Shown: positions 8,319 through 57,282 of the stretch, piece after piece
How positions within the stretch are numbered: the stretch's first letter is position 1
Layout: every line of letters begins with the position of its first letter
NCBI GenBank assembly: GCA_015075005.1
Contig: JABTVC010000001.1
Location: forward strand, 1,178,001-1,242,000
Source of the DNA: Planctomycetia bacterium
GTDB lineage: Bacteria; Planctomycetota; Brocadiia; Brocadiales; Brocadiaceae
Length of the DNA: 64,000 nucleotides
Reading direction: 5' to 3'
Made by a program: the position numbers and the translations under genes
The notes under the pieces: generated by a model
Database searches by the model: none
What the model was told of the DNA's origin: nothing
Seen by the model: only the letters and a program-made list of their open reading frames with translations

Positions 8319-8365
8319 AGTCTCCGACTAACACACTAACACACATTATAAAACAAATACATTTC

Positions 8366-8459: not shown

Positions 8460-8477
8460 ATTGAGTCGTAAAAAGAC

Positions 8478-8529
8478 AGCCTTACTGCCGAAGATGTTTC
8501 AATGAACATTTTTCCAGTAAGGCTTTTTT
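8478..8529 (+). terminator. Riboswitch expression-platform terminator
   Basis: Perfect 10-bp arms AGCCTTACTG (8478-8487) and CAGTAAGGCT (8515-8524) are followed by T residues. It lies between the GEMM-I aptamer and the first gene of the operon, as expected for a riboswitch-controlled attenuator. Confidence 0.82.
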
Positions 8530-40300: not shown

Positions 40301-41566
40301 TTAAAACCTGTAATTGAAATTTAAGGCAAAGATATGAGTAATACTGTCATAGTGACCATCTATGGGCGTACCGAACGCATCTCCTACGGTATTATTTACA
40401 GTTCTGTTTTCGTAAAAAACGACACCGTATGCAATGTCTATCCATTTATTCAAAGTTTTCCCCCAGCCGTATCCAAGCCCTGTAAATAATGCATGCCGGC
40501 TGCTCTGAGGAATAGAGGGCTCAAAAGTTTCTCCGGGAACTGGCGACTCATGAAAGGAGTACCCGCCTCTTAATTTTACAGCTTCATTCAATTTGTATTC
40601 CCCACCCAGGGCAAACCCCCACGTATTATTCCATTTTCTAACATCCTCTATTTCTGTTCCAAGCAGAGGGTTTGGTGATTCAAGGTCAATTTCAAGAATG
40701 TCAAAACGCGACCAGTTGGTCCACTGTGCATCTGCTTCTATACTCCAACGATTTCCATGCCGGTATGCATAACCGAACGAGAGCATTTCAGGTAGTGTGG
40801 CAGTAGTAGAGGTGTCTGAATAGAAGTGATTTGCCCCTGTTACCGCTTCTGGCAAGCCGGTGAGTCTCAGCTTGCCATCAAAGTCTATATCTGCCTTACT
40901 TCGGAAAGAAATTCCAACACTGTGCTGGGGAGTAATATTACAAAGTATCCCCGCATTGTATCCAAAGGCATCGCCATGCATTTCAAGGTCACGAAATCCC
41001 TCGGGAGCTCCTGCAGCTAAAGAAGGGATACGACCTTCTTGCTCAGAGCGGGCATAATAGTAATCAAGCCCAACACCCATCGAAAGAAAAGGAACCGGTT
41101 GAAATGTAATGGTTGGATTAATATTAAGAATACTCAAGTCAAAATCCGTAATTACAAATCGCGAAAAGCCATCTTCATCCCATTCACCTTTGAGACCGTA
41201 AGGCACCGTTATTCCAATACCAGCGGCTAATTTGTTTCCGATGATTGGACTGGCAAAATATAGATTTGGTATGACATTTACGCTAGTATCCATATCTTCA
41301 TTGATACCGTTACCGTGATATTCTACAGAAGGAAAGACAAAGCCAGTACCCAGAGAAACCTGAGGCCTTTCGAGTTGTGTTAGTCCTGCCGGATTAAAAG
41401 AGATTGCAGATGCATCGTCAGCGCGGGCTACAAAGGCGTTTCCCTGCGCAAGAGCTAAGGCGCTAAAAACGGGATTATGTAAGCCTGAAGCTATCTGTGC
41501 AAAGACGTTAGCTGCCTTACAAAAACTGAGAAGAATAAAAACACAAACTACAGCGAATTTTTTCAT
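40301..41566 (-). CDS. FadL/TodX-family outer-membrane transporter
   Basis: The product is 421 residues. A signal peptide (FAVVCVFILLSFCKAANVFA) is followed by the FadL-family N-terminal hatch region (AFVARADDASAISFNPAGLT). A 14-strand-type barrel runs to FALNFNYRF with a terminal Phe. The family moves long-chain fatty acids and other hydrophobic compounds across the outer membrane. AAAGGATA precedes the ATG. It is monocistronic and convergent with cinA. A link to the lipid cluster 5 kb away is possible but unsupported. Confidence 0.88.
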   Translation of the reverse strand: MKKFAVVCVFILLSFCKAANVFAQIASGLHNPVFSALALAQGNAFVARADDASAISFNPAGLTQLERPQVSLGTGFVFPSVEYHGNGINEDMDTSVNVIPNLYFASPIIGNKLAAGIGITVPYGLKGEWDEDGFSRFVITDFDLSILNINPTITFQPVPFLSMGVGLDYYYARSEQEGRIPSLAAGAPEGFRDLEMHGDAFGYNAGILCNITPQHSVGISFRSKADIDFDGKLRLTGLPEAVTGANHFYSDTSTTATLPEMLSFGYAYRHGNRWSIEADAQWTNWSRFDILEIDLESPNPLLGTEIEDVRKWNNTWGFALGGEYKLNEAVKLRGGYSFHESPVPGETFEPSIPQSSRHALFTGLGYGWGKTLNKWIDIAYGVVFYENRTVNNTVGDAFGTPIDGHYDSITHIFALNFNYRF

Positions 41567-41619: not shown

Positions 41620-42645
41620 TTATAACTCCTTTCCCTGTTCATCGCGCGGGTGTATTTTCCGGTAATAATCGATAATGGTAAGCACCTTTTCTGCCAGGGT
41701 AGGCACAAATTGAGTATTTATTCCCTGTTTAATAATTTCACATGCCTTCTGATGAGAATATTTTTTGTGGTAATGCCTATCGGTAGTAAGGGCGTCATAA
41801 GCATCTACGATGGAAAGAATACTGGCCGCAGAAGGAATTTCATCTCCCCGCAGGCGATCAGGATACCCCGTGCCATTATACCATTCATGGTGGTGACGCA
41901 CTATTGGCAGGCATTCTTTCAAAAAGTCTATTGGCTCAATGATTTTATAGCCTATCTCGGAATGCCGTCTCATTAAAACAAATTCCTCTTCTGTAAGAGA
42001 ACTTGGTTTCGCCAGCACAACATCAACTACCCCGATTTTTCCTATATCGTGAAGGTAGGCTCCATGTCGCAAGATCTCAATATTTGACTCGTTCATGCCC
42101 AATTCTTTAGCAACAAATGCTAGCAGATGAGAAACTCTTTTCGAGTGACCTGCAGTATAAGAATCTTTTGCATCTATGGCATGTAAAAGGGCTTCTGTGG
42201 TTGAAAAGAAATTTTGTTGAACTGCTGATCTCAAGTTGTCCACCAACGTGTTTCTTTCCCATAATTCGTTATTATGGTGTAATGCCTTTTCAGCCACAGT
42301 AAGTATTTCAGAGGGATGAAAAGGTTTTACAATAAAATCAAATGCGCCATTTCGTAAGGCCGTAATTGTGGTTTCTATGGAAGGATGCGCGGTAATCATA
42401 ATTATGGGAATAGTAGAATTTGCAGAACGCATTTGTTTAAGGAAATCCAGACCGTTTGTCCTGGGCATCTTTATATCAAGGAAGATCATCTCTGGTATCA
42501 TGGAATCCAGGGTATTACGGGCTTCATCTATGTTTGATGTAGTGGAAACACAGTATTTATCCTTCAGTATCATCTTTAATGATTCCCTTACACCCAGATC
42601 ATCATCGATTATAAGTATGTTTGCTGATTTAGATTTTTGTTCCAT
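41620..42645 (-). CDS. HD-GYP response regulator (predicted c-di-GMP phosphodiesterase)
   Basis: The product is 341 residues. The receiver (about 8-122) has DDD, the phospho-acceptor in IFLDIKMP, TAHPS and KPF. The HD-GYP domain (about 155-325) has AGHSKRVSHL, HDIGKIGVVD, the paired His of RHHHEWYNGTGYPDRLRGDE and DAYDALTTDR. These domains hydrolyse cyclic di-GMP. Start 42645 is set by GGGGGAAAAGGT upstream; the frame continues to 42705. No kinase is adjacent. Confidence 0.92.
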   Translation of the reverse strand: MEQKSKSANILIIDDDLGVRESLKMILKDKYCVSTTSNIDEARNTLDSMIPEMIFLDIKMPRTNGLDFLKQMRSANSTIPIIMITAHPSIETTITALRNGAFDFIVKPFHPSEILTVAEKALHHNNELWERNTLVDNLRSAVQQNFFSTTEALLHAIDAKDSYTAGHSKRVSHLLAFVAKELGMNESNIEILRHGAYLHDIGKIGVVDVVLAKPSSLTEEEFVLMRRHSEIGYKIIEPIDFLKECLPIVRHHHEWYNGTGYPDRLRGDEIPSAASILSIVDAYDALTTDRHYHKKYSHQKACEIIKQGINTQFVPTLAEKVLTIIDYYRKIHPRDEQGKEL

Positions 42646-43366
42646 ACCTTTTCCCCCAAACAATAACATGACATTTCTTGTACCAAATCTGAAAGAAAAA
42701 TTCAATGAAAATTGTAACTAATTTATATTCCTTGACTAACGACTATTTTTCTTAATTGGTAAATAAAATGTATCTGATGTATGACACTAGTGATTAACGC
42801 TCTATTCGGGATTATTACATGCCATATATAGTGCAGGAGCCTTGTTAATTTGCAACAAATAGTATGTATGTTAAATTAGCCGGCACTTCATAAACAAAGT
42901 CATATATGAATATACAATATAGTCTGTTGTGTTAATTTATCATACAATATTGGCCTCACATGTTCATATTTGTGCGCATGTTATTACTTTTTTAGTAATG
43001 CCCTGTCTTTAACGACAGGGGCCAATTTTGTCGGTATATACCTGAAAAAGAAAAATATTGCGACATGTCACGACGAAAAAATGTACATTATTTCTCTTGA
43101 TGTTTTTGGATTAGCTTTTTCTTCTGACATTATTATTGCTTTAAGTATCCATCATCATACAACATCCTACCTCAATACAATATATTTTCATAATTGGTAC
43201 TAGAATTGCGAAGTGCTCATTATTGTTCAGGTAATAATATTTTTATATGACCTTGATATTTTAACGAACATTTCACATCATTTTTTCGTCTGTTTATAAT
43301 CTCCATTTTGTTTGGCGATAGATGTTTCCAGTAATTAATCAAGGATTTTTTTGAAAGGGGATGGTT
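42646..43366. other. Long AT-rich intergenic region
   Basis: These 720 bp between divergent regulators show no convincing gene; a frame at 42970-43203 lacks a start signal and a protein-like composition. A small perfect hairpin, CCCTGTC-TTTAAC-GACAGGG, is at 43001-43020. The length suggests regulatory sequence for both flanking genes, but I could not assign a promoter or operator. Confidence 0.5.
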
Positions 43367-44816
43367 ATGTACTCGTTTTTGATAGTCTCGGACGATGACT
43401 CGATTCGTGGCCTTTTCAGAAAATCTTTAAACGGAGATTATATAATTCATTATCCAAAGACTCATGATGAAGCTTTACAATTATTTCTTCACAAAGACAT
43501 TGATATAATATTTGTGGATATTCTCTTGAATAATAATGGGGCATGCATCCTTTTGGAGAGTCTGAAACAAATTAAATTTGACTCGTCGATTGTTGTATTG
43601 GTTCCTGAGTCGCAGCCTTCATTGACTGAAGAAGTTCTGAAGATAGGGACGTACGAACTTATCGAGAAGCCTTTGACGAAAGAATCGATACATCGAACCT
43701 TAAAAAGGGCCCTGGAAAAGCAGGAACTCAAAAAAGAGCTGTGTTTTATTCAGTCGCAAATTAAAAATTTACAACCAAAAGGTAATGACAGCAACTTTTC
43801 AGAATTGATTTTTAATAAACAAACAAATACCGGCGATACACACCTTACCTATAAAGAGGTATTTCAGAAGTTTTCTAAAGTATTAACGCATGTTTATGAT
43901 TTTGGGAACTTTGCTGAGATGACTGTAGAGGCGATGGCAGAAATATTTGGGGTGGGAAGGGTAGTATTTATGCTGATATATAAAGAGGGCATCAGTCGGC
44001 CATTTCGTTATTTCGGTTTAGATGAGGTTGCCGCCAAAAGTATTTGCTTCAATCTTGATCATGGAACTATGCTCTGGTTGGCCAAAATCATCAGATATTA
44101 AATAAAGATGTTATAGATAGGGAGGTTGCAACTAACAAATTGAATATGCGTGAAGCGATAAGTATGCAGAGGGAATAAATCTGTTGCAATCGCAACTATG
44201 CATTCCTGTCTTTACCCGTGGGAATCTTAGCTGCGTAATCGCTTTAGGGAACAAGATTACCGGTAAGGCGTTCTTTGATGAAGATATAGAATTGCTGTCT
44301 ATGCTGGCGGGATATATAGGCATGGCTGTGGAGAATGCTTTTCTCTACCGCGAGGCAAATCTTAGAAAAGTTCGGAATGAGAATATTTTAGAAAACATTC
44401 CTTGTGGTGTAATTGCTATAAACAACAACTGCAAGATTAATACCTTGAATAAAAGTGCTGCAAAGATGTTAAATATTTCTTCCAACGACATATTAGGAAA
44501 AGATGTCAAGCATATTGGTTCTCTATTCGCCAATATTATATTGAGGACATTGAAAGATAAAAATATTTATAAGATGACTGAGATTGTGCATCCTGTCACT
44601 CAGTCTGTATATACGGTAAGCACTTCTTTATTAGATAGTGAGGGTGAATTAGGTGCGATTATAATATTTTCGGATATAAGTGAAATGAAGAGATTACAAT
44701 CGAGTTTAATCGAAGTTGAGAAATTGGAGGCAAAAGTAAAGAATTTAGAAACCCAAACACTATCACCTGGTATTTCTCCAGTGTTACGCAAAGAGCTTGT
44801 TACACAATCAGCTTGA
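43367..44816 (+). pseudogene. Receiver-GAF-PAS signalling protein, frameshifted
   Basis: The first piece (to 44101) has a receiver with the phospho-acceptor in IIFVDILLNN and Lys in IEKPLT, then the start of a GAF domain. The frame breaks near 44095 and again near 44160. The missing link reads REVATNKLNMREAISMQRE. The second piece (44184-44816) completes the GAF domain (QLCIPVFTRGNLSCVIALGN) and a PAS domain (ILENIPCGVIAINNNCKINT). AAAGGGG at 43354-43360 supports ATG 43367. No kinase or output domain follows. It lies just upstream of the sigma-54 activator. Confidence 0.75.
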
Positions 44817-44940: not shown

Positions 44941-46319
44941 ATGAAAACTATACTATTGGTAGATGACGAGTTCAGTGTCGTTGAGTCTCTCCGTCTTGTC
45001 CTAAAGGATAGCTATAGGGTACTTGGCACTCCACAGTGGGAAGGAGGCCTTAAAGATATTAGATAATGACCGTGTGGATCTCGTATTGCTTGATTTGAAA
45101 ATGCATGAGATGGATGGCTTCGAACTGCTAAGGAGGTTACAACCCTCTTTGCAAGAGATCGGTATAGTAGTATTAACTGCGGTAAATGACGTCAAGTCAA
45201 TTGTAGCGGCTGTTAAGCTGGGTGCTTTGGATTATATTGTCAAGCCATTTGAAATTGAAGAGATTAAGATAACCGTTGAAAAGGCATTGCAGCTTAAAAG
45301 TTTAACCAGGGAGGTTCGATATCTTCGTTCTGAATATAAATACCATTCTATCGATAAATTAATTCATGGACACAGCCGGATGATGGAGGAAATAATCGAT
45401 ATTGTCTCCAGGGTCTCGCGAGTCGACTCAACCGTTCTTTTACGGGGAGAGTGGTACGGGTAAGGAATTAGTTGCGCGTGCAATCCATTTTGATAGTAAT
45501 CGGCGCGAGAATCCCTTTGTTGTCGTAAGTTGTCCAAATCTGGCAGGGGACTTACTGGAAACAGAGCTCTTTGGTCACGAGAAGGGATCGTTTACCGGTG
45601 CATATGAAAGAAGATCGGGTAAGTTTGAGATAGCTGAAGGTGGCACCATATTTCTTGATGAAATTAGTGAAATAAACCTGCCTTTGCAAGCAAAACTATT
45701 ACGTGTTCTCCAGGAAAGGGAATTCTCCCGTTTAGGGAGTCATTCTGTCATCAAGACTGATGTCCGTATAATTGCTGCGACAAATAAAGATCTGGAAAGA
45801 ATGATCAAAGATGGCCAATTTCGTGAAGATCTTTATTATCGCATTAATGTTGTCCCCATTTATCTCCCGCCGCTTCGTGAAAGGCCGGAGGATATTCCAC
45901 AATTAGTAGAACACTTCTATAACATCTTTCGAAAAGAGTGCCATGCAAAAACGGAATTTATTTCAAAAGAAGCAATGGCGGTATTGTTAAAGTATCATTG
46001 GCCAGGAAATGTAAGAGAGCTGAAAAACATAATGGAAAGAACTATTGCACTCTACGGTAACGAATCTACTCTTCTGCCGGCACACCTTCCTTTTGAGATC
46101 ACCGGTATTTCTTCCGGTAATCTTCAGAGGTTAAAATCAGACAAAAACAGGCGAATCTCCATAGAAGACGAAGTGGCGCAGGTAGAAAAGCAACTCATTG
46201 AACAGGCTCTTCAGGAATCCGGAGGTGTGAAATCAAAAGCAGCAAAGCTCCTTGGAACCACCCGTCGCATTATCAATTATAAGATGCAAAAGTATGGGAT
46301 TACAGATTCGGAGCATTAG
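44941..46319 (+). pseudogene. NtrC-family sigma-54 activator, frameshifted
   Basis: The pieces form a classical activator of about 460 residues. The receiver is MKTILLVDDEFSVVESLRLV with LVLLDLKMHEMDGFELL. The AAA+ domain has Walker [14 protein letters not shown], the GAFTGA loop ([13 protein letters not shown]) and GGTIFLDEI. The C-terminal Fis-type helix-turn-helix is [20 protein letters not shown]. Shifts near 45030 and 45450 break it; the second is exactly at Walker A. It would drive sigma-54 promoters in answer to a kinase, possibly the 7TM kinase at 52531. If the shifts are real it is inactive. Confidence 0.85.
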
Positions 46320-46434: not shown

Positions 46435-46467
46435 GGGTGGCATGGACAAACCTTGTTTGTCCATGCC
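46435..46467. repeat. Dispersed palindromic repeat, copy 2
   Basis: GGCATGGACAAA and TTTGTCCATGCC form perfect 12-bp arms around CCTTG. The sequence matches the copy at 16674-16704. Confidence 0.5.
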
Positions 46468-46503: not shown

Positions 46504-47733
46504 ATGAAAAACGAGTAGTCGTAACTGGCATAGGTATTGTTAGTCCGCTTGGCATTGGCATTCGTGAAAACTGGGAAAGATATCTATCTGGTACATCGGG
46601 AATTAAGGAAATAGTACCCGATGGTATGGATACAAAAATATATGCTGGCAAGGTATCTGACGCAGAACTAGAAGCATCTATTCCCGATACCAAAAAGGTA
46701 AAATAGACAAATTTACCAGCTTTGCCTTAGTTGCTGCAAAGATTGCATTAGCTGATGCAAAATTGGTAGCGAATTTAACCAGGAAAAGATTGGGGTTTTT
46801 ATAGGGAGTGCTTTAGCGGACTTCACATCATCGAAGAGCAAATTAACATGCTATACACAGATGGCCCAAGAAGAGTTCATCCCCTTTTAATGCAAAAAAA
46901 TCTTACGAATGCTCCGTCTGGTGAGATTGCTATAGAATTTACTTTGAAAGGCCCGAATATAGGCTTTTCAAGCGGTGCATGTTCGGGAAATTACAGCATA
47001 ATTCACGCATTTAATACAATACAACGGCATGATATCGACGCGATGGTTGCTGGCGGTACCGATGCGCCGCTATGTCCAGGAGTATTTGAAGAATTAAGAC
47101 ATAAAGGCTTGTTTCACTCAAACGACACTGGTTTGACTCGAGCGAGCTGTCCATTTGATATCGACAGAAAAGGCTTTGTTTTGAGTGAAGGAGCAGGTGT
47201 TCTTGTTTTGGAGACACTGAGCAGCGCAGAGAAGAGAGGTGCTGAGATTTATGGTGAGTTCGTTGGATTTGGGGCCTCTTATTGTAATAAGAGTGAGGCA
47301 AATCAGGAAACCCCTGGTTTCCATTCTAAAGTGTTTTGCATAAAACAGGCATTAGGGTCTGCTTCTATTGAAGCATCAAATGTTGATTACATCAGTGCAA
47401 GTGGCGTATCGGGAATAAGAGAAGACAGGGAAGAATCAGAGGTAATAAAATCAGTTTTTGGCAAAAATATTCATAAGATTCCGGTAAAGTTCAGCCAAGG
47501 GTAGTTTGGGATTTTCAGTTGGTGCATCTGGTCCAATTGATGCGATTTTTTCACTCTTATCTTTGAAAAACAAAGTTTTGCCGCAAACAAATAACCTTGA
47601 GAATATTGATCCGGCATGCAGTTCATTGTTTTTTCTAAAACAACCGGATTTCAAGCCTGTGAATGTAATACTATCAAACAACTTCGATTACGCCGGTAAT
47701 AATGTAGCAATACTGTTTAAGAGATTTTTATAG
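46504..47733 (+). pseudogene. KAS-like protein 1, altered active site, frameshifted
   Basis: The thiolase-fold pieces are in order: RVVVTGIGIVSPLGIGIREN, KFTSFALVAAKIALADAKL, PSGEIAIEFTLKGPNIGFSS, DRKGFVLSEGAGVLVLETLS and LGFSVGASGPIDAIFSLLS. Shifts lie near 46510 (A-tract after the ATG), 46703, 46785, 46820 and 47500. The Cys nucleophile is retained (GACSGN). The two catalytic His positions read Ser: ISASGVSG instead of NAHGTST, and KFSQGS instead of KSMTGH. It may be a non-catalytic, chain-length-factor-like partner. Disruption could be real or sequence error. Confidence 0.8.
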
Positions 47734-47841
47734 TATTGGCAGGGAGGTTACAGTCACTATGCCAAAAGGTAATCTTCGCCTGCTTATGCTGCGATAAAAG
47801 ACGGTCATTTACTAAACGAATAGGAACGGTACTCAGAGAAA

Positions 47842-49125
47842 ATGGACAAATACGTTGGGGAAAACAGAGTTGTTGTTACAGGAATAGGAATCATTACACC
47901 AATAGGAATTGGAATAGATGAATATTGGGAATCTGCCATAGGTGGGAAATCAGGTATATCAGCAATTTCACGATTTAATGCAGAAGGTTACCCTACAAAG
48001 ATAGCTGGTGAAATAAAGAATTTTCATCCTGAAAAATACATGCCTGATGATCTGGCTGACAATTTGAGCAGATACTCTCAATTGGGCTTGGCAGCAGCTC
48101 AAATGGCAGTAAAGGACGCAAAGGTGGGTTTTTCTGGTATAGATAAAAGTAGAGTTGGGGTATCGATCGGATTAGGCGACGAAATCTTGTCATACTACGA
48201 CGAAAAAACTGCAATTAGAAATAACAACTATATCTTGCGGACTAAACCTCCGATGGATAACAGGAATACATCAAACATAATCTCAGATTTTTTCGGTTTT
48301 TCAGGTCAAAGTTTAACTGTCGCAACAGCTTGTTCAAGCGGAAATCAAGCTATAGGAATTGCGAGAGATATGATTACAGCAGGACAAGCCGACCTCGTTT
48401 TGACAGGTGGCGCTGAGGCGCCTATTTTCCCACTTATTTTGGCGGCTTTTTGTTCCTTGAGAATACTGTCGAAAAGAAATGACCACCCCACAAAGGCTAG
48501 TAGGCCTTTTGATAAGGAAAGGGATGGTTTTGTAATGGGTGAGGGTGCTGGTATCTTAATTCTTGAAAGAGAAGAACATGCTTGCGAAAGGGGGGCGCAT
48601 ATTTATGGTGAAATAGCTGGTTATGGTGCTTCAAGTGACGCCTTTCATATGACGATGCCATCACAAGACCGGTTGCAAATATGCAGGGCAATGACTTTGG
48701 CGATAGAGGATGCCGGTCTGAATATTAACGATATTGATTATATTAATGCACATGGGACATCAACAGCGGCAAATGATAGGGGTGAAACGAAGGCAATAAA
48801 AACGGTTTTTGGAGACAACGCTTATAACATACCAATCAGTTCAACGAAGTCAATGACGGGACATTTGATGGGTGCAGCCAGCGCAGTTGAACTGATAACA
48901 TGTATTTTAGCAATAAAAACCGGGGTACTCCCTCCTACCATTAATTTAGAACATGCAGACCCTGAATGTGACCTGGATTATGTGCCTAATAAAGCAAGAA
49001 AGAAAGAAATTAATACTGCACTTTCAAACTCCTTTGGCTTTGGAGGTAATAATTCAACCGTAGTAATAAAAAAGTTTAAGAACTCCTTTAATTCTATAGA
49101 AACAAAAAATCTTGGGAGGGTATAG
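47842..49125 (+). CDS. Beta-ketoacyl-ACP synthase II-like (KAS 2)
   Basis: Condenses acyl-ACP with malonyl-ACP. The product is 427 residues, normal for FabF. The catalytic set is complete: Cys164 in VATACSSGNQ, His304 in NAHGTSTAANDR, and Lys/His341 in KSMTGHLMG. RPFDKERDGFVMGEGAGILI and the C-terminal NSFGFGGNNSTVV motif are also present. It is closer to FabF than FabH. It follows KAS 1 by about 108 bases and the ACP gene starts 4 bases after its stop. A role in a special lipid such as ladderanes is inferred from context; a generic fatty-acid role is the alternative. Confidence 0.92.
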   Translation: MDKYVGENRVVVTGIGIITPIGIGIDEYWESAIGGKSGISAISRFNAEGYPTKIAGEIKNFHPEKYMPDDLADNLSRYSQLGLAAAQMAVKDAKVGFSGIDKSRVGVSIGLGDEILSYYDEKTAIRNNNYILRTKPPMDNRNTSNIISDFFGFSGQSLTVATACSSGNQAIGIARDMITAGQADLVLTGGAEAPIFPLILAAFCSLRILSKRNDHPTKASRPFDKERDGFVMGEGAGILILEREEHACERGAHIYGEIAGYGASSDAFHMTMPSQDRLQICRAMTLAIEDAGLNINDIDYINAHGTSTAANDRGETKAIKTVFGDNAYNIPISSTKSMTGHLMGAASAVELITCILAIKTGVLPPTINLEHADPECDLDYVPNKARKKEINTALSNSFGFGGNNSTVVIKKFKNSFNSIETKNLGRV

Positions 49126-49129
49126 AACA

Positions 49130-49396
49130 ATGGAAAACTTTACAGAAGATATGGTTAAAGAAGGACTCAAAAAAATATTAGCAAAGGAGCTCAAAGTAGA
49201 GCCGGAAGATATTAATGATGATTCCCATATTGTAAATGATATTGGTGCCGAATCGGCTGACATGATTAATCTTTTGTATAATATTGAAAATGAATTTAAT
49301 ATAGAAATTTCTAATGAAGAAGCCGATAAAAATTTAACAATACAAAAGATGGTCAATCTGGTAAAAGATAAAATCTGCATAAATTCCTCAAAATAA
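49130..49396 (+). CDS. Acyl carrier protein
   Basis: An 88-residue acidic ACP. The phosphopantetheine site reads DIGAESADMINL, with Ser42; the usual GADSLD is changed to GAESAD. The helices around it (EDMVKEGLKKILAKELKVEP, LLYNIENEFNIEISNEEADK) are typical. ATG 49130 is set by GGGAGGG 9 bases upstream; the longer frame from 49112 is not needed. The variant site and its place between KAS and radical SAM genes suggest a dedicated, not housekeeping, ACP. Changing the Asp before the Ser to Glu may affect which transferase loads it. Confidence 0.9.
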   Translation: MENFTEDMVKEGLKKILAKELKVEPEDINDDSHIVNDIGAESADMINLLYNIENEFNIEISNEEADKNLTIQKMVNLVKDKICINSSK

Positions 49397-49459
49397 ACTT
49401 TGCGGAAAATTCAAAAATCTGCTATATCAAACAAACTATTTGTTTTTAAGGGGCTTTCT

Positions 49460-51241
49460 ATGAGTGGTTCTCACAGCACAGACATTCTCTTATGGAATTC
49501 ATTTATGGGAAAGGCATATTCCGTTAGTGACTGTTTTAAAGAAAACGGTATTGGAATACTGGTCAGGGCATGCAAGGATGCTGGATTTGCTATTACCGTT
49601 GAAGATCCGGCAAGAATCGATTTTTATACGGCATTTACGAAAAATGATCTTGTGTCACGACTATCCGAGCTCTCGCTGCAGATATTTGGTATTCATCATG
49701 CTGAAGATACTGCATCCTTAAGAAAGGAGTGGCACCTCCTTCAAGATAATCTTGCAAGTGTTATCAAAGGAAAAATGGAGAAATACATTGATGACCTTGC
49801 CCAAAAAGTACTCGAGAAGCAGGTAAAGGTACTCGGAATCAAGACCTGGCTTGGGGACAGATTCGTATATTCCGAGAAGCTTGCGCAAAGAGTCCGTGAA
49901 CTAAGCCCACAGACCTTAGTGATTGCCGGTGGACCACAGGTTAATCAATTTAAGGCTCATGCAATGGAGAAAAGTCCTTTTGATTTTTGTATCGATGTTG
50001 AGGGTGAAGTGACTCTGGTACAGATTGTGAATATTGCAAAAGAAATATATTCCCGGGGGGGGGCCAAATCTGATGTTATAAAAAGAATTACCGGCCTTGC
50101 AGAAGCGGGTAAAATCTTTAATGTGATATATAATAATAACGGCGAGGTAAAAGAAACACCGGTTAAAAGACTTTCTTTGAACTCCAAACCTTTCCCCCTT
50201 TATGAAAAGGAGGACGGAAAGGTAAATATAGCAGTCATTAACGAATCTTCGGGATGCTATTACGGAAAATGTAATTTCTGTACGCATCCAAATATTACCG
50301 GTAAATACCAGACACGAGATATTAATATTACCATTAGCGAAATCAAGGAAACAATTAAAGAAGCGGGTATTGGGCTCTTCAGGTTTGCAGGCTCCACAAC
50401 GCCAGTATCTCTGAGTAATCGAATTGCTGACGCTTTATTAACAGAGGGATTAACTATTGAGTATTCAATGTTTGTTCGGGCAGAGACTCGGGCGAAAGAA
50501 CGGATGGCGGAACTTATTGAAAGCTATGAAAAAATAATACGTTCAGGACTTAAGGCCGTTTTCCTTGGGGCTGAGGCAGCTAATAACGATATCCTTTCAA
50601 AGATTATGGATAAAGGTAATTCTGTAGAGGACGTCTATTTTACCGTGAAGGCCCTAAAGCAGGCGTCCTGCAACCAAAGAAAACATCTTGACGTAGGTAT
50701 AAGTTTTATTTATCCGTGCCCGATACCTCCTGATAGTGGCATAACCCATGAGCAGGTGTTGGAAGAGGATTTGTGTTTACTTAATACATTAAAAAATGAG
50801 AATTGCAAACCAGACTCCGTTCTTATAACGCCTGGTGCACCGTTACCCGATACCGCATGGCAAAGAGAACCAGAAAGATTCGGATTCGATCTGCCTGATG
50901 ATTATTTCCAGACTGTCTTACGCTATGAGTATGAACTAACGAAAGACCCAAGCACGTGGCCTGAACTGGATATTTCTTTAAACGGCATAAAGTTCCTTGA
51001 TATGCTTAAGATGTCCGGGATCATGGAGAAAAGGGTCAGAGAGATGGGTTACACCGTAAATGTTTCTGACGAGCATTGTCTTGCAGCAAGAAGTGCCGGA
51101 TTCTTAGGACAGAAGGGCCTGGAAGAATTCAAGACAAGAAGCGATTTGTCTTTATTGACAACGGGCTACAGCTTCCTGAAAGAAGTTTATCAAAAGATAA
51201 ACACATACAGTCGCAGACTGGCAGAAATAAATCTACTTTAA
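49460..51241 (+). CDS. B12-binding-type radical SAM protein
   Basis: The product is 593 residues. The N-terminal 210 residues resemble a cobalamin-binding-type domain (VLGIKTWLGDRFVYSEKLAQ, LVIAGGPQVNQF, IDVEGEVTLVQI) but lack a DxHxxG cobalt-ligand motif. The [4Fe-4S] motif is SSGCYYGKCNFCTHP, with Cys266, Cys271 and Cys274, a CX4CX2C spacing instead of CX3CX2C. GLFRFAGSTTPVS and AVFLGAEAANNDIL are radical SAM barrel motifs. ATG 49460 with AAGGGG is preferred to TTG 49400. The substrate is unknown; radical chemistry on an ACP-bound acyl chain is the contextual guess. Confidence 0.88.
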   Translation: MSGSHSTDILLWNSFMGKAYSVSDCFKENGIGILVRACKDAGFAITVEDPARIDFYTAFTKNDLVSRLSELSLQIFGIHHAEDTASLRKEWHLLQDNLASVIKGKMEKYIDDLAQKVLEKQVKVLGIKTWLGDRFVYSEKLAQRVRELSPQTLVIAGGPQVNQFKAHAMEKSPFDFCIDVEGEVTLVQIVNIAKEIYSRGGAKSDVIKRITGLAEAGKIFNVIYNNNGEVKETPVKRLSLNSKPFPLYEKEDGKVNIAVINESSGCYYGKCNFCTHPNITGKYQTRDINITISEIKETIKEAGIGLFRFAGSTTPVSLSNRIADALLTEGLTIEYSMFVRAETRAKERMAELIESYEKIIRSGLKAVFLGAEAANNDILSKIMDKGNSVEDVYFTVKALKQASCNQRKHLDVGISFIYPCPIPPDSGITHEQVLEEDLCLLNTLKNENCKPDSVLITPGAPLPDTAWQREPERFGFDLPDDYFQTVLRYEYELTKDPSTWPELDISLNGIKFLDMLKMSGIMEKRVREMGYTVNVSDEHCLAARSAGFLGQKGLEEFKTRSDLSLLTTGYSFLKEVYQKINTYSRRLAEINLL

Positions 51242-51273
51242 AAAAGAGATGTTTCATTAGGAGGAATAGTTCC

Positions 51274-52518
51274 ATGGTAAAAAGGCGTGTCGTTATCACG
51301 GGCATGGGGATATTAGCTCCTAACGGTAATGGAAAGGACGCATATTGGGATGCCTTAATCAACGGGCGATCAGGTATTAAAAGGATCACTGCCTTCGATC
51401 CATCTCCTTTTAGCACCCAGATTGCAGGTGAGGTGAAAGACTTTAACCCTTGTGATTACTTTGACCAGAAATTGGTCAAAAGAAGTGCAAGGTTTACCCA
51501 TTTTGGTGTTGCTACAGCAAGGATGGCAGTCGCAGACTCGGGCATTAATCTAAATAGAGAGAATAGCAACAGATGTGGCGTATGCTTTGGAACTACGATA
51601 GGTGCTGAAAATGATATCTATGAGCTTCAGCACAGGAGATTCTTGGAGTTAGGCCCGAAGGCAGTGGGACGTTACACTGCACCTGAGGTAACACCACATG
51701 TGGTAACAGGTTACATATCTGCGGAATTAAATATACGTGGCCCTAATTCAACGCTGTCCTCCGGATGTTCAAGCGGGATTGATGTTGTAAACTGGGGACA
51801 CAGTATGATTAAAGGGGGGGAGGTTGACATGGCAGTAGTTGGGTGTGCGGATTCTATGATATTTCCCTTTGCAATGTCAGGCTTTAGTTCTTTGGGAATA
51901 CTTTCAAAAAGAAACGATGATCCGGAGAAGGCATCGAGGCCGTATGATAAGGGCCGGGATGGTTTAGTAGTTAGCGAAGGTGGTGTATCGATCGTGGTTG
52001 AGGAGTTGAACCATGCCTTAGAAAGAGATGCTAATATTTATGCTGAAGTTGTATCTTATGCCACTGCATGTGAGGCTCAGGATGTTTTTCATGTCGAATT
52101 AAATGGAAAAACGCTGTTCACGGCACTGCAACAGGCATTAATCAATGGTAAAATCAGGGAAGATGAAATAGACTATATCTGTGCCCACGGGAATGCTATT
52201 CCTAGTTATGACCTGGCAGAAACAAATGCCTTTAAAGCATTCTTTAAAGATCATGCATACAAAATCCCCATAAGTTCAATCAAGTCCATGACAGGTCATG
52301 CCTTTGCGGCAGCAGGTGGTTTCCAGGTAGTAGCTGCAAGCCTTAGTCTAAAGAATGGAATTATTCCTCCCACCATTAATCTTGATGTACCAGACTCCCT
52401 CTGTGATCTTGACTATGTTCCACACAGCGCCAGATATTTCAGCATGGACACCGCGCTGGTAAATACCCATAGTGTAGGTGGAACACATGCAGCCCTTGTG
52501 TTGAAAAAATTCTCTTAG
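51274..52518 (+). CDS. Beta-ketoacyl-ACP synthase II-like (KAS 3)
   Basis: The product is 414 residues with the FabF fold and a full catalytic set: Cys165 in SSGCSSGIDV, His305 in CAHGNAIPSYD, and Lys/His342 in KSMTGHAFAAAGG. The usual NAHGTST is CAHGNAI, so the active-site surroundings differ from ordinary FabF. RPYDKGRDGLVVSEGGVSIV and THSVGGTHAALVL (instead of NSFGFGG) are further departures. AGGAGG at about 51259 sets ATG 51274. It follows the radical SAM gene by 32 bases and precedes the kinase by 12. Substrate specificity is probably unusual. Confidence 0.92.
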   Translation: MVKRRVVITGMGILAPNGNGKDAYWDALINGRSGIKRITAFDPSPFSTQIAGEVKDFNPCDYFDQKLVKRSARFTHFGVATARMAVADSGINLNRENSNRCGVCFGTTIGAENDIYELQHRRFLELGPKAVGRYTAPEVTPHVVTGYISAELNIRGPNSTLSSGCSSGIDVVNWGHSMIKGGEVDMAVVGCADSMIFPFAMSGFSSLGILSKRNDDPEKASRPYDKGRDGLVVSEGGVSIVVEELNHALERDANIYAEVVSYATACEAQDVFHVELNGKTLFTALQQALINGKIREDEIDYICAHGNAIPSYDLAETNAFKAFFKDHAYKIPISSIKSMTGHAFAAAGGFQVVAASLSLKNGIIPPTINLDVPDSLCDLDYVPHSARYFSMDTALVNTHSVGGTHAALVLKKFS

Positions 52519-52530
52519 GTAAGACAGGCA

Positions 52531-55116
52531 ATGATTGCACTCAATGTAATAAACATCCTAATATGCCTGCTGTATGCCGGGCTCGGATTATTTGTACTCC
52601 TAAGAAATCCGGTTAACGTCATTAACAAGAGATTTTGTATCGTTGCAAATACCTTTTGCATCTGGACGTTTTTTATTTTATTTACACTCCAGACCACAGA
52701 TCCGGTTGTGGCTGCCTTCAGGCTCAGATTGGTCTTTTGTGCAGCAACTTTTATTCCTTCTACCCTCTTCTATTTTACCTTAGTCTTTCCTGATAAATTA
52801 GAAAGTTTTATCAATCGATATTTTTGCATATCTTTTTTTGTGATAAGTGCAATTCTCGCATCTTTTCCTTCCCTTATCGTTGAGTCTGTATCATTTGAGA
52901 AACACTTACTCCGTCCCACGTATGGTCCATTATTCGCCGTATTCTGTTCTTACTTTGTAGCTTGCGCGACATATTCCATATACATCCTTTATAAAAAAAG
53001 TATATGCTACTACGGAATAAAGAAATTGCAGATTCAATATTTTTATTTTGGAGTAGCGTTATCTTTATTTCTGGGGACCATCACAAACTTTATCTTACCA
53101 GCGATACATGTGTGGCACGTTGAGAGTTTTGTCCCTTTAGTCACCGCCCCTATTCTGATAGCTGTGGCTTACGCCATTGTAAAGTACCATCTCATGGATA
53201 TCAGTGTCGTAATAAAGAAGAGCACTGTTTACGCTATACTATCCATTATCCTCAGCGTAATCTATTTCACGGCTGGACTCATTATGAGTCGCATACTTCC
53301 TGTATCAGAGTACAAAGAGACCGTTATGAATATAGTTTCTATTATCGTGATGGTTTTAACCTTTGTGCCTGCCCGGGAATCAATTCAACATTTTGTTGAG
53401 AATAGTCTATTCCGTACCAGGTATAGCCACTCAAAGATACTCAGTAACTCGACCGTAATGTTTTCTTCTATCCATGATTTGAATAGACTTCTCCGTTTTG
53501 CCATTCAATATTTATATGATTCCGTTGGTATTGAGAAGATAGGGATACTGATAAAGGATGAAAAAACCAGGCGTTACAGTCTACAAGCAGCAATAAATTT
53601 CTCATTCTCATCCGACTCATCCGATGATAAGATATTTTTTCCCGACAACGAAGCAGTTGTTACCTGGCTTTGCAAAAACAGAAAGATTCTCTCTAAAGAA
53701 CAGATAAACCGTTTTACGCATAATAAATTTGACCACGTGTTGGAAGAGACATTGACATCTCTGGACATAGACAGCTGTGTTCCCGTCCTTCAGGAAAACG
53801 ACCTTTTTGGCATAATTCTTTTGGGTAAGAAAATTGACAAAAAGATCTTTACGCAAGAAGACATCCAGATGTTTCTTGCATTTTCTGGTCAATTGGCTAT
53901 GGCAACTCGTAATGCCCGCCTATATGCTGATTTGGAAAAGGCTAAGACTTACAGGGACAACATCCTCCAGAGTTTAAAGTGTGGGGTGATTGCTGTTGAT
54001 ATTCATGAAGAGGTCGCCCTTGTTAATGCTGAGGCCAGAAATATCCTTGGACTGAATAGCGCAAGTTCAGGCAGAACCATACTCAATGCCCTTGATACAG
54101 ACACTCACACATTACTGCGATATACGCTCAAGAGTAACTGTGATTACCGCGATATCGAGACTTTTATTGAAAGAGGCAATAAGAAAGTTCCCTGTGGTGT
54201 AACCCTGGCTCAACTTAAAACTGAAGCCGGGGAGAAAATCGGGGCATTAATGATTCTGACAGATCTAACAGAATTAAAATTGCTTCAGGCAGAAAAGCAA
54301 CATGCCGATCGTCTCGCACATCTTGGTGTACTTGCAGCTAATATTGCCCATGAAATAAAGAATCCCCTGGTGGCTATAAATACATATTTCCAGCTTCTTC
54401 CTTATAAGAAAGATGATGAAGATTTTCACAGTAACTTCAGAGGGATTGCCTTGAAGGAAATAGGGAGGATTAATAGAATTATTGAAAACATGCTGAATCT
54501 GGCAAAACCTACCAAACAAGTTATACGGCACATAGATCCGCATTGTGCAATCCTGGATACCATAAACTTGATAAAGAACGATGCGGCAGAAAAGGGTATT
54601 GAGATAACTACGGTTTTAGAAGAAATGAATTGCCGGCTTGTTGCCGATGAAGATAAGATAAAGCAGATGCTTATAAACATTCTCCAAAACAGTTTTGACG
54701 CGTTGCCGATAAACGGGTGTATTCATGTGAGCACACGCGTAATTGATAATGTCTCCGAATTCAGAAGAATGGCAAAAGAACGTCCTGGCAGTGTGTTCTT
54801 TTCCTTTGCTCCACATCTCATAGACGAATCAAACAAGCAATACTTCGTGATAAAGGTCACTGATAACGGGACGGGCATTCCTGCTGAAAAGCTTGGCGAT
54901 ATCTTTGAACCATTTTTTACTAATAAAGACAAAGGAAATGGTCTTGGTCTGGCTATTGTATTTAGAATTATGAAGGACCATAAGGGATGTATCTACGTAG
55001 AGAGTAAGGAAGGCGCAGGTACTGATTTTTATATTTGTCTGCCAATAAATAGCATAAACACTTCTGGGATGAATAATTTTGATTCAAAAGCTACGAATGC
55101 TTCTTCAGTTTTGTAA
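52531..55116 (+). CDS. 7TM sensor histidine kinase with GAF and PAS domains
   Basis: The product is 861 residues. The N-terminal 260 residues hold about seven to eight membrane helices (7TM histidine-kinase sensor type). A GAF domain (about 300-465) and a PAS domain (about 475-590, NILQSLKCGVIAVDIHEEVA) follow. The dimerisation box has phospho-acceptor His607 (NIAHEIKNPLVAINTYFQ). The ATPase domain has QNSFDALP, VTDNGTGIPA and KGNGLGLAIV. It lies 12 bases after KAS 3, so it is probably co-transcribed with the lipid-type cluster. The NtrC-type activator at 44941 is a possible partner. Confidence 0.92.
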   Translation: MIALNVINILICLLYAGLGLFVLLRNPVNVINKRFCIVANTFCIWTFFILFTLQTTDPVVAAFRLRLVFCAATFIPSTLFYFTLVFPDKLESFINRYFCISFFVISAILASFPSLIVESVSFEKHLLRPTYGPLFAVFCSYFVACATYSIYILYKKSICYYGIKKLQIQYFYFGVALSLFLGTITNFILPAIHVWHVESFVPLVTAPILIAVAYAIVKYHLMDISVVIKKSTVYAILSIILSVIYFTAGLIMSRILPVSEYKETVMNIVSIIVMVLTFVPARESIQHFVENSLFRTRYSHSKILSNSTVMFSSIHDLNRLLRFAIQYLYDSVGIEKIGILIKDEKTRRYSLQAAINFSFSSDSSDDKIFFPDNEAVVTWLCKNRKILSKEQINRFTHNKFDHVLEETLTSLDIDSCVPVLQENDLFGIILLGKKIDKKIFTQEDIQMFLAFSGQLAMATRNARLYADLEKAKTYRDNILQSLKCGVIAVDIHEEVALVNAEARNILGLNSASSGRTILNALDTDTHTLLRYTLKSNCDYRDIETFIERGNKKVPCGVTLAQLKTEAGEKIGALMILTDLTELKLLQAEKQHADRLAHLGVLAANIAHEIKNPLVAINTYFQLLPYKKDDEDFHSNFRGIALKEIGRINRIIENMLNLAKPTKQVIRHIDPHCAILDTINLIKNDAAEKGIEITTVLEEMNCRLVADEDKIKQMLINILQNSFDALPINGCIHVSTRVIDNVSEFRRMAKERPGSVFFSFAPHLIDESNKQYFVIKVTDNGTGIPAEKLGDIFEPFFTNKDKGNGLGLAIVFRIMKDHKGCIYVESKEGAGTDFYICLPINSINTSGMNNFDSKATNASSVL

Positions 55117-55197: not shown

Positions 55198-57282
55198 TTA
55201 GTGTTTGTTTAAGGATGCGATGTCGTTCAGGAAACGCTCTCTGGAATAGTGTCCCTTTTTTACCACCAGTGAAATATCGTGATTTAGCTTTTCCTTGTCT
55301 GCCTGCGTTAAATCCTTTGCAGTGACCACGATAATGGGAATGCTATTTGTTTCCGGAGTAGTTTTCAATTTTTCTACTACATCAAATCCACTTACCTCTG
55401 GCATCATTAAATCTAAAATGATCAAATCCGGCTTCCAGAGAAAAGTTTTGTCAATTCCATCTTTTCCTCCGTATGCCTTTAAAATCTCATATCCTTCAGA
55501 GGCGATGAACGTGCCAAGCAGTTCTACCGATTTTGGGTCATCGTCAATAATCAGTACCTTTGAACGTGATTGATTGGCAGGGGGGAAAAGCCTGTATGCA
55601 GAAAGTTTTGAGAGGAGATCGCTCCGGCTTACCGGTTTACAAAGATAATCTGTTGCACCTAACCCAAAACCAATATCCATATTATCTACGATGGAAATTA
55701 TCAGTACGGGAATATCTCTTACGTCTTTATCTTCCTTAAGTTCTTTCAACACCTCCCATCCGTCTTTTTTGGGGAGCATTACGTCAAGGGTAATGACAAA
55801 AGGCTTGAATTCCCTTGCTTTTTTCAGCGCATCTTCCCCATCGAAGGCAGTGATCGTTCGATATCCTGATTTGTTTAGAAAGACGCACAGCAACTCACTG
55901 GTTTTCGGATCATCTTCTACTACCAGAATACACTTTTGGCTTACCAGGCTTTCAGAAAAACTGACACCACTATCTTTTTCCTTACCTGTATGTGCGGGCA
56001 TATTTACAGGCAATGTAAACTGAAAGGTGCTGCCGGCGTTCACCGTGCTCACAAATCCAATTTTGCCACCATGCATCTCAACTAATTTCTTTGTGAGGGC
56101 AAGACCTAACCCGGTTCCCTCATAGTTGCGTGAGTAAGAACTGTCAACTTGTGAAAATTCTACAAATATCTTTGGGTAATCTTCGGGGGCTATACCAATA
56201 CCGGTGTCGGTAACTTTAACTTCAATGAAATCTTTTTCTTTGCTGAATGTTGTTGAGTGTATTGTAATATTCCCGTTTTCCGGGGTAAACTTAATGGCAT
56301 TGGAAAGAAGGTTATACAAAATTTGTTTAAACTTGACAATATCTGCGAAGATTCGGTCAACAGGGTTGTGGACAATCGTTTCGATTGTCAGCGACTTCTT
56401 ATCGGCAAGGCCCTTTATGGTAATTAAGACGGCTTCTATAGCCTTGCCAATCTCAAATTGTTCATATTTTAATTCCAGCTTGCCTGATTCTACCTTTGAC
56501 AGATCTAATATATCATTGATCATCTGTAAGAGGTGTTGGCCACTACCGTGAATGTCCATGGCAAACTCTAATTGTTCATCGTTTAAATCACCACACAACT
56601 TATCCCGAAGTACTTCGGAAAAACCGATGATTGCATTTAATGGAGTACGCAGTTCATGCGACATATTGGCAAGAAATTCACTCTTTGCCTTATTGGCGGC
56701 CTCTATCTTTTTGTTTTGTATTTCGGTGAGCCGGACTTTTTCCTCGAGTGCTGCGTGGTAACTGTGTATATAGGCATCAATGGCCAATTGCATATCCAGA
56801 TTCATAATCTTATCAATGACCAGGATATAGTCAGTTATCTTGTCAGGCTGATCTTTGTATGTCGTAATGATAAGGGGAAAGATGAGCCGGTGGTATAAGC
56901 AATATGCACCAATATACCAATTAGGGTGCAGGTCTATGTGATCATGAGTCTTGCCGACATTTAACCGATGCTCGAAGTATTTCTCATCATAAATTCCCTC
57001 CGTAAGCATTAAAAGATATTCCTTTTGTGTGCGTTTGACTTTTTTAATCGTTTCCTCGTCGGACAAAAAAGACCGGGTTCCCTTAAATCTGAGGAGATGA
57101 CTATAAAATTTACTTATTATTTCATCGGCATGCTGGTGAATAAGCCCGTTTAATTCTTTGAGCAAGGTTACGTCACGCCCGGTAAAATCCAGATAATCCT
57201 TACGTGCCTGCCGTTCCTGTTCGCTGAGGGTTAATTCACCTAAAGGTATGGTGTGTTCTTCCATTACAGATACTTTACTCAC
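55198..57282 (-). CDS. Globin-coupled hybrid histidine kinase with two receivers
   Basis: The product is up to 694 residues. The N-terminal 170 residues match the globin-sensor/protoglobin fold, with proximal-type His113 in [18 protein letters not shown], so a heme-bound O2 or NO signal is likely. The HisKA box has His209 ([19 protein letters not shown]). The ATPase domain has [13 protein letters not shown]-like [12 protein letters not shown] and [10 protein letters not shown]. Two receivers follow at about 440-560 and 572-690 with phospho-acceptors in [10 protein letters not shown] and [10 protein letters not shown]. The start is GTG 57282 or ATG 57264. It is convergent with the 7TM kinase gene. 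Confidence 0.9.

Follow-up and report, generated by a model that had tools for sequence, protein, structure and literature searches.

A putative two-component/sigma54-controlled acyl locus of anammox bacteria, probably distinct from ladderane synthesis

In a planctomycete genome of the Brocadiaceae, genes for three ketosynthases (KAS1 to KAS3), an acyl carrier protein (ACP) and a B12-type radical SAM protein (rSAM) lie side by side, and the question is whether this block belongs to ladderane synthesis, as a first-pass annotation had suggested. The source organism is an anammox bacterium, as indicated by two HzsA matches. The published ladderane candidates, in K. stuttgartiensis, include the FASII-like clusters kuste3603-3608 and kuste2802-2805 (Rattray 2009, PMC2649909). 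With a probability of roughly 55%, we regard the block as a two-component/sigma54-controlled anammox acyl pathway, present here in its larger form, which would make a specialised product on cue and not a ladderane.

The window, that is the whole stretch of 64,000 nucleotides analysed, contains the following features around the block.

40301-41566, minus strand: FadL-type outer-membrane channel (Toluene_X; PF03349, 238 bits)
41620-42705 (likely start 42645), minus strand: response regulator with an HD-GYP-type HD domain (PF00072, 97.6 bits; PF13487, 109.1 bits)
43195-43210, plus strand: sigma54-type -24/-12-like site, 5' of the GAF regulator gene (score 17 of 19.2)
43361-44816, plus strand: response regulator with GAF/PAS, frame-broken in the assembly (PF00072, PAS)
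45023-46319, plus strand: NtrC-type sigma54 activator, frame-broken in the assembly (PF00072; PF00158, 211.5 bits; PF02954)
46440-46466, no strand assigned: perfect inverted repeat with 12-base arms around a 3-base loop, in the gap from the NtrC gene to KAS1
46504-47733, plus strand: KAS1, degenerate chain-length-factor-like ketosynthase, frame-broken in the assembly and intact in relatives
47842-49125, plus strand: KAS2, FabF-type ketosynthase with Cys-His-His intact (Pfam, NCBIfam, motifs)
49130-49396, plus strand: ACP (PF00550, 42.1 bits)
49460-51241, plus strand: B12-type radical SAM protein with CX4CX2C (Pfam, motif, predicted structure)
51274-52518, plus strand: KAS3, ketosynthase with an altered gate (Pfam, alignment)
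52531-55116, plus strand: membrane histidine kinase (7TM, GAF, PAS, HisKA, HATPase; Pfam)

The strand, order and protein families given in the first-pass annotation for KAS1-KAS2-ACP-rSAM-KAS3 are borne out, except that KAS1 is not an open gene. Its range of gaps, from 4 to about 108 bases, also agrees with what is found: 108 bases separate KAS1 from KAS2, and 4 separate KAS2 from the ACP gene if the latter begins at the ATG at 49130. The limits that it drew were incomplete, with the histidine kinase gene following 12 bases past KAS3 and two regulator genes lying ahead of KAS1. The gene order recurs in relatives and thus the arrangement is not due to chance. The inverted repeat is its own sole match in the window at up to three mismatches (0 of 100 shuffles).

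Condensing enzymes, carrier protein and radical SAM protein

The reading frame of KAS1 is lost and then regained, with internal stops (six in frame over residues 2-338); the gene is intact, at 409-411 residues, in all five named relative loci that were inspected. Also broken in the assembly are CinA (read against L049) and the GAF response regulator and NtrC-type genes (read against L049, L052 and L040), the GAF regulator lying in pieces in different frames where relatives have one gene. Sequencing or assembly error is therefore the likely cause in KAS1 as well, as judged from these reading frames; gene decay, with KAS1 dead in the source genome itself, may be the cause instead. The window copy being frame-broken, active-site residues were taken from eight aligned orthologues (one partial, window copy excluded), four of which were seen again in a motif comparison that also reproduces the Table 2 residues of PMC2649909 for kuste2805 and kuste3606. 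All eight have Ser in place of the first catalytic His and Phe, Tyr or Leu in place of the second, and all have Ala, Gly or Thr in the Cys column with a Cys one residue later. The loss of both His residues in all eight would exclude KAS1 as an active condensing enzyme.

KAS2 scores 170.7 bits (PF00109) and 131 bits (PF02801) in Pfam and 515.2 bits against NCBIfam fabF, above the cut-off of 493.75; FabF provides the best NCBIfam and PDB matches of both KAS1 and KAS2. The ACP aligns with ACP 1x3o and carries GAES at the position of the usual GxDS motif. In KAS3, HSVG takes the place of the GFGG gate of FabF (alignment of 12 sequences). Its second catalytic His is kept in the window copy and is Gln in most relatives, as counted over 27 genome loci; the 48 rows available mix named loci with genome loci of the same contigs. 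The statement of the first-pass annotation that this is not housekeeping fatty-acid synthesis holds, in that the block has its own ACP and B12-type rSAM and a KAS of FabF type is encoded elsewhere, at 710 kb of contig C12. Searching the window by tblastn (E<=0.01) with single FabG, FabZ and phytoene-desaturase-like queries gave no match to any of them, in a weak test, as a kuste3603 ACP query run alongside failed to pick up the ACP of the block.

The likelier start of the rSAM gene is 49460, leaving a 63-base gap to the ACP gene; here the alignment with the proteins of relatives begins, and the product has about 593 residues. Its Radical_SAM domain (PF04055) scores 34.2 bits, over the cut-off, and its B12-binding domain (PF02310) 32.2 bits against a cut-off of 32.1. 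It thus has the arrangement of class B (cobalamin-dependent) radical SAM proteins, in which a radical SAM domain with a three-Cys motif comes after a B12-binding domain at the N-terminus. All 46 locus rows, among which named and genome loci overlap, show the motif as CX4CX2C, the usual spacing being CX3CX2C. With the predicted model (pLDDT 78), Foldseek places TsrM (2.1e-14), MgmA (2.4e-13) and OxsB (4.4e-11) at the top, and AprD4 is also matched. The structure titles of TsrM and MgmA name a methyltransferase or methylase; OxsB and AprD4, of the same fold class, are not known to methylate. C-methylation is the commonest chemistry of this class, and rearrangement is possible.

Distribution and the ladderane question

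Close relatives of the rSAM were found almost exclusively in the anammox order. The locus search returned 24 loci, three of them weak matches in Bacilli; the rSAM alignment comprises 14 sequences drawn from 23 rSAM-matching loci (the window, 21 named loci and L186), with L050 left out for an in-frame stop and others as redundant or truncated. Orthologues of rSAM and KAS3 occur in the same 27 of the 59 genomes searched. Orthologues of KAS1 and KAS2 likewise share one set, of eight of the 59, all of which carry the rSAM-KAS3 core, and in one further f4 genome an incomplete KAS1 is accompanied by a fragment of KAS2.

The rSAM-KAS3 pair is absent from 20 of the 38 HzsA-bearing genomes, among them that of K. 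stuttgartiensis (G020, a single contig identified by its HzsA and FabZ). Outside f1 it is absent from 25 of the 26 order-level genomes, the exception being G039; HzsA is present in 18 of these 25, and the 18 are expected to make ladderanes. HzsA was not found, by protein search either, in five g1 genomes of 92-99% completeness (G001, G003, G005, G006 and G008), perhaps, as a guess, through loss in short-read assembly. With near-complete genomes of this kind lacking it, a missing HzsA does not show that a genome comes from outside the anammox bacteria.

As K. stuttgartiensis is the organism on which the ladderane proposal is based, the absence of the pair from it and from so many other HzsA-bearing genomes leaves the ladderane-cluster reading of the first-pass annotation without support. 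The published candidates are also a separate matter: the source genome carries its own orthologues of kuste3603-3608 and kuste2802-2805, apart from the block, and in the KAS tree all three ketosynthases fall outside the clades holding kuste2804/3605 and kuste2805/3606. Nor do kuste3346, 3348 and 3349, from a third published candidate set (kuste3335-3352), join them in the tree, although all three are long rows of unsure position. Locus comparison and tree together exclude the block as an orthologue of kuste2802-2805, and the distribution among HzsA-bearing genomes excludes it as a general requirement for ladderanes. Finally, the rSAM reaches 56.7 bits against NCBIfam TIGR04072 (rSAM_ladder_B12), far from the cut-off of 360. 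The first-pass annotation proposed asking whether the block is syntenic in, and restricted to, ladderane producers; rSAM-KAS3 is not general among them. The broad occurrence in bacteria making no ladderanes that it named as contrary evidence was not seen. It is thus very improbable that the concatenated cyclobutane chain is the work of the rSAM and these ketosynthases, even though the source is an anammox genome with HzsA, the rSAM is nearly restricted to anammox bacteria and the published candidates repeat the theme of a ketosynthase, a degenerate ketosynthase and a B12-type rSAM. The block may, in some genera, tailor ladderane chains.

Regulation, proposed pathway and its alternatives

On gene content, what is conserved is the trio of rSAM, KAS3 and sensor kinase, which is preceded by a sigma54-type site and has an HD-GYP regulator as neighbour; KAS1-KAS2 with the ACP is its accessory module. 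From the KAS3 stop to the first start codon of the kinase there are -1 to 12 bases in 19 of the 20 loci with both genes, and 134 in L053. The HD-GYP regulator is seen in 16 of 17 loci with the GAF regulator, the seventeenth (L058) having a flank of only about 0.5 kb. FadL genes of 60-88% identity are present in 11 of the 21 named relative loci, the other ten being short, cut off or without FadL (e.g. L045, L047). With the L051 FadL as query, two of six core-less genomes gave matches of 31-33% and four gave none at E<=1e-20; an empty site, sought via FadL, was located in none of the six.

The sigma54-type site was scored against a weighted -24/-12-type consensus. A site as good as that at 43195-43210 arose in 0 and 1 of 300 shuffles; the window holds two sigma54-like sites above score 17 and at least nine at 16.7, so that its score alone is not special. 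Of 18 loci, 15 have a site scoring at least 16 at 85-197 bases ahead of the GAF regulator gene, a level matched by 0-18 of 300 shuffles; the three without one are L050, L051 (K. hertensis) and L059. Directly 5' of KAS1 (seven loci) or rSAM (12 loci), 40-295 of 300 shuffles did as well, and at other spots in the window the counts were 10 (KAS1-KAS2 gap), 16 (before NtrC) and 147 (before ACP).

Two more distant neighbourhoods bear on function. In G359, from outside the class, a full-length rSAM (35% identical) adjoins an AMP-binding gene; a kinase, a sigma54 activator and two genes for N-acyl amino acid synthases of the FeeM family are nearby. The rSAM of G041 is more distant (25-31%) and lies with a FeeM-family gene, an MMPL gene and an ACP that shares 54% identity with that of the window. 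In G041, KAS1-KAS2 lie on one contig and ACP-rSAM at the end of another; an overlap between the two was looked for and none was found, and our guess is that they once formed one cluster.

In the pathway that we propose, the rSAM, the variant ketosynthase KAS3 and the membrane histidine kinase would be made together under sigma54 and two-component control. In the larger form, KAS2, its catalytically dead partner KAS1 and the dedicated ACP would provide an acyl chain or lengthen one. The rSAM would modify it by C-methylation or rearrangement, and KAS3, with its changed active site and gate, would condense or transfer the product of that step. The smaller form, which is the commoner, would rely on the general system for the chains used by rSAM and KAS3. 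Anatomy, conservation, distribution, active-site changes and the predicted fold class are observed; we infer the ACP substrate, the order of steps, control by sigma54 and the membership of the kinase in the circuit, and for the product a signal lipid or stress lipid is our guess. The proposal draws on the co-occurrence of rSAM with KAS3 and of KAS1 with KAS2, the KAS3-kinase gap, the sigma54-type site, the missing His residues of KAS1, the absence from K. stuttgartiensis and from 20 of 38 HzsA-bearing genomes in all, the separate published candidates, the KAS tree, the B12-rSAM fold and the G359 and G041 neighbourhoods. Several observations count against it. Locus L059, from Anammoxibacter, shows neither the downstream kinase nor the HD-GYP regulator nor FadL within its 8-kb flanks, although upstream it has an NtrC-type gene and a response-regulator-PAS kinase. 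Seven loci with the GAF regulator and rSAM (L041, L042, L044, L046, L048, L056 and L057) show no NtrC gene. To these are added the site gaps in L050, L051 and L059, the lack of better-than-shuffle sites before KAS1 and rSAM, the chance that the KAS1 gene is defunct in this very genome, and the absence of FeeM, acyl-ligase and MMPL matches in the window at E<=0.01 in the tblastn that also missed its ACP.

A possible, if doubtful, alternative is that the block serves stress-responsive tailoring of Brocadiaceae ladderane or other membrane chains in length or branching, for example by mid-chain methyl branches. Mid-chain methyl-branched fatty acids are anammox lipids, the fold matches are led by TsrM and MgmA, regulator and kinase genes lie within the unit, and no export or ligase gene was found in the window by the weak tblastn. 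However, neighbours of the FadL and FeeM kinds suggest acyl compounds that can diffuse, and methyl-branched acids, known from anammox genera in general, misfit the distribution of the unit. Somewhat less probable is a self-contained anammox fatty-acid signalling system in which rSAM and KAS3 would make a diffusible, modified acyl signal, FadL would pass it, the kinase would sense it, the HD-GYP and sigma54 proteins would relay it, and the ketosynthase-partner-ACP module, serving its own chain, would be optional; such a circuit would parallel DSF/Rpf with an rSAM as the builder of the signal. Control of exopolysaccharide or aggregation through a PrsK-like kinase (XrtA/PEP-CTERM), the acyl enzymes making a lipid anchor or capsule component, seems improbable. 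The kinase does match the PrsK model, and in two g7 genomes KAS2-like genes (52% identical) with an ACP adjoin genes that by eye resemble those for polysaccharide export; yet the PrsK score of 85.7 bits is far below the cut-off of 300, the AtoS model scores higher (275.2 bits, cut-off 646), and no exosortase or polysaccharide genes were noted among the genes of the block.

Comparison with known systems

The regulated acyl pathway is best described as a Brocadiaceae-centred variant of the known anammox theme of ketosynthases with a B12-type rSAM; we did not find it described in the literature searched. In common with kuste3603-3608 and kuste2802-2805, it has a ketosynthase beside a degenerate partner that, as in KAS1, lacks both catalytic His residues; a B12-type rSAM and a gene for ACP or AcpS also belong to the shared set. 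It differs in its longer and only distantly related rSAM (about 593 against 486-493 residues), its third ketosynthase, its kinase and regulator genes and its sigma54-type site. The TIGR04072 family similarly combines B12-binding and radical SAM domains near fatty-acid genes, but a score of 440 is reached by the protein from the G020 cluster with three KAS genes, which we take to be kuste3335-3352, against 56.7 for the rSAM of the block. Ladderane candidates, which are expected to be common to ladderane makers, can be told apart from a FAS-like rSAM unit that is not so shared, and removing the block from the list of candidates narrows the search for ladderane enzymes.

An intact ketosynthase (KAS2), a partner without condensing residues (KAS1) and an adjacent ACP also recall the type II minimal polyketide synthase. 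Chain-length factors carry a characteristic Gln, which KAS1 lacks; KAS1 and KAS2 are closest, by best matches, to FabF, which argues against an aromatic type II synthase, and no cyclase or aromatase was noted.

Effects of AHLs on anammox activity have been reported, and the Brocadia sinica genes behind them are left open in that report (PMC7734396). Should the block yield a lipid of the signal or stress type, this would have consequences for the sensing of density or stress by anammox bacteria and for their aggregation, which matters for reactors. By analogy of domain make-up only, the placing of acyl enzymes next to a kinase of the membrane and a response regulator of HD-GYP type resembles the DSF/Rpf system. 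There, RpfF is a crotonase-fold synthase, RpfC the membrane kinase and RpfG the HD-GYP regulator; in the block, by contrast, the putative synthase would be an rSAM with a ketosynthase.

Gene block and its integrity

We read the block at window positions 46504-52518, which comprises three ketosynthase genes (KAS1, KAS2 and KAS3), an ACP gene and the gene of a B12-type radical SAM protein (rSAM), followed by a histidine kinase gene, as a regulated specialised acyl pathway. The substrate would be held on the ACP; the order of steps, sigma54 control and a place for the kinase in the same circuit are putative parts of the scheme. Judged by title and start of abstract, none of the open-licence PMC texts listed describes the block.

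All five genes share one strand (+), as in the first-pass annotation, but not all of them are open. KAS2, ACP, rSAM and KAS3 are; the KAS1 frame changes at least twice and contains internal stops. Three further genes are also broken when read against the related loci L049, L052 or L040.

Frame-broken genes in the window
39005-40262: CinA
43361-44816: GAF regulator
45023-46319: NtrC-type activator
46504-47733, + strand: KAS1

FadL and the HD-GYP regulator, between the broken genes, and KAS2 through ProA, after them, match their relatives in one frame, and KAS1 is intact (409-411 aa) in five named relative loci. Noisy assembly is a likelier cause of the broken frames than decay, and we suspect an error of the assembly in this region. 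In the window's own genome, the kuste2803-like rSAM (kuste numbers denote Kuenenia stuttgartiensis genes) is found as two open frames (L135:10835-12320; C1 about 1,450.8-1,452.3 kb) and may also be frame-broken in this assembly.

The kinase starts -1 to 12 bases after KAS3 in 19 of 20 loci. Upstream, the HD-GYP gene was found in 16 of 17 loci, FadL less often and the NtrC-type gene in a part of the loci. In 15 of 18 loci a sigma54-type site lies 85-197 bases before the gene of the GAF regulator, and sites of comparable score recur elsewhere in the window. The accessory module KAS1-KAS2-ACP, counted over the window, 21 named loci and L186, occurs in seven (the window, L039, L040, L052, L053, L058 and L186). 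By genome, in a count that covers KAS1 and KAS2, orthologues of both are present in the same 8 of 59 (G000, G001, G003, G005, G006, G007, G009 and G018); in G041, an incomplete KAS1 and a fragment of KAS2 adjoin a gene that by eye resembles a transposase.

Several other features were observed. A perfect inverted repeat with 12-base arms, single-copy in the window, lies between the NtrC-type gene and KAS1 (46440-46466). The window that holds the HD-GYP regulator also has a c-di-GMP-I riboswitch (8362-8492, 52.7 bits). A candidate gas sensor, in an anaerobe, is the hybrid histidine kinase at 55198-57282, which carries a protoglobin domain at its N-terminus; several Brocadia loci have it downstream of the unit as well. 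At L184 and L185 (G023 and G016), ACP and a KAS2-like ketosynthase (52%) adjoin genes resembling, by eye, polysaccharide-export genes.

Distribution and the ladderane question

The window's genome (3.9 Mb, 22 contigs), whose nearest named relatives are Brocadia, has two matches to HzsA, the hydrazine synthase subunit used here as the anammox marker. Orthologues of rSAM, taken as matches of at least 53% identity or fragments, are found in 27 of the 59 genomes, namely 26/33 of family f1 and 1/26 beyond it (G039), and KAS3 in the same 27. In a sample of 392 genomes of the phylum, 21 (20 f1 and G359) match the rSAM profile at E<=1e-40 and eight (seven f1 and G041) match KAS1 at E<=1e-100. On named contigs, in a scan with short patterns that misses distant kin, 21 of 24 loci have Brocadia, Brocadiaceae, Jettenia, Kuenenia, Loosdrechtia, Anammoxibacter or plain Planctomycetota titles; the remaining three are weak Bacilli matches.

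The rSAM-KAS3 pair is present in 18 of the 38 HzsA-bearing genomes and absent from 20 (G014, G020 and 18 in f2, f4 and f5); G020 is a single contig, 99% complete, and many others are drafts, so that single absences are weaker. We infer that f4 is Scalinduaceae and f2 Bathyanammoxibiaceae. The FabZ of G052 and the Scalindua brodae enzyme in PDB 8ayi share about 93% identity by a count made by eye. Passages of PMC3731535 report hzsA clones of Scalindua only, with ladderanes in several of the samples from those sediments.

The HzsA piece of G020 is identical to PDB 5c2v_A in all 675 of 675 residues, and 147/148 residues of its FabZ agree with 8ayd_AA. Both entries are, we take it, from K. stuttgartiensis, and because of these matches G020 is, by sequence, K. 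stuttgartiensis. Its loci have the orders AcpS, rSAM, KAS, KAS (kuste2802-2805) and ACP, FabZ, KAS, KAS, desaturase, rSAM (kuste3603-3608), the candidate ladderane sets in the gene lists of PMC2649909 and PMC4790861; the former also reports ladderanes in K. stuttgartiensis. Both sets sit elsewhere in the window's genome (about C1:1,294,263-1,300,487 and C1:1,448,165-1,452,744), and the block is therefore an additional cluster. The first-pass proposal of a ladderane cluster is not supported: the published sets are separate from the block, and the pair is missing from 20 of the 38 HzsA-bearing genomes, K. stuttgartiensis included.

The f2 genome G040 (L139) has a kuste2804/2805-like pair and FabF; no kuste3605/3606-like pair was seen there, and the 3603-3608 set may therefore not be universal among HzsA-bearing genomes. 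A three-KAS cluster that includes a member of TIGR04072 and is taken for kuste3335-3352 is present in K. stuttgartiensis (L133, G020). No set of this kind figures among the KAS matches listed for G000 and G002, and this argues against a general ladderane function for the cluster.

The radical SAM protein and its distant relatives

The rSAM has B12 and radical SAM domains, with CX4CX2C in 46/46 overlapping rows. Its predicted fold is nearest to TsrM, MgmA, OxsB and AprD4, in a model (pLDDT 78) built on 14 sequences only and poor around 289-299 and 481-530. It reaches no NCBIfam cut-off (best PhpK, 62.7 bits, and TIGR04072, 56.7), and solved structures include no close sequence (TokK, E=0.011).

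Outside the class, G359, which has no HzsA match at E<=1e-30, encodes a 35% identical rSAM in a stretch of 71% GC, where reading frames were chosen by third-position GC. An AMP-binding gene adjoins it on the same strand; nearby are two genes of the FeeM family (134.6 and 129.4 bits), together with genes for a sigma54 activator, a kinase and another B12 rSAM. In G041, a distant rSAM (25-31%) is accompanied by a member of the FeeM family (71.4 bits), an MMPL gene and an ACP 54% identical to that of the window. Both cases hint, but do not prove, that rSAMs of this kind serve pathways in which acyl compounds are passed on to amino acids.

Ketosynthase active sites

Nine matches gave eight KAS genes in the window's genome: one FabF (on C12), KAS1-KAS3 and two further pairs. 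Four order-level genomes (G036, G039, G041 and G058) have 24 to 31 KAS matches, whereas the remaining 55 have 3 to 14.

The KAS2 active site is intact. KAS3 keeps Cys, the first His and Lys, with the gate HSVG in 48/48 overlapping rows; its second His is Gln in 19/27 genomes and His in 7/27, one not being read. The His form occurs in G000, G003, G005, G006, G007 and G009, all with KAS1 and KAS2, and in the 58% complete G032. It goes with the accessory module, and not the reverse, because G001 and G018 have KAS1 and KAS2 yet a Gln KAS3.

In KAS1, the Cys column holds A, G or T, with a Cys one residue later; the first His is replaced by Ser and the second by F, Y or L, and Lys is kept (8 aligned rows, and 4 in a second alignment). 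KAS1 should thus not condense by itself. The degenerate residues of kuste2805 (F, N, K, E) and kuste3606 (V, N, K, E, R) are as in Rattray's Table 2. KAS1 resembles such degenerate partners of the two published pairs in the expected loss of its own condensation, but falls outside their groups in the KAS tree, in which 17 of 29 inner branches are starred and some rows are long.
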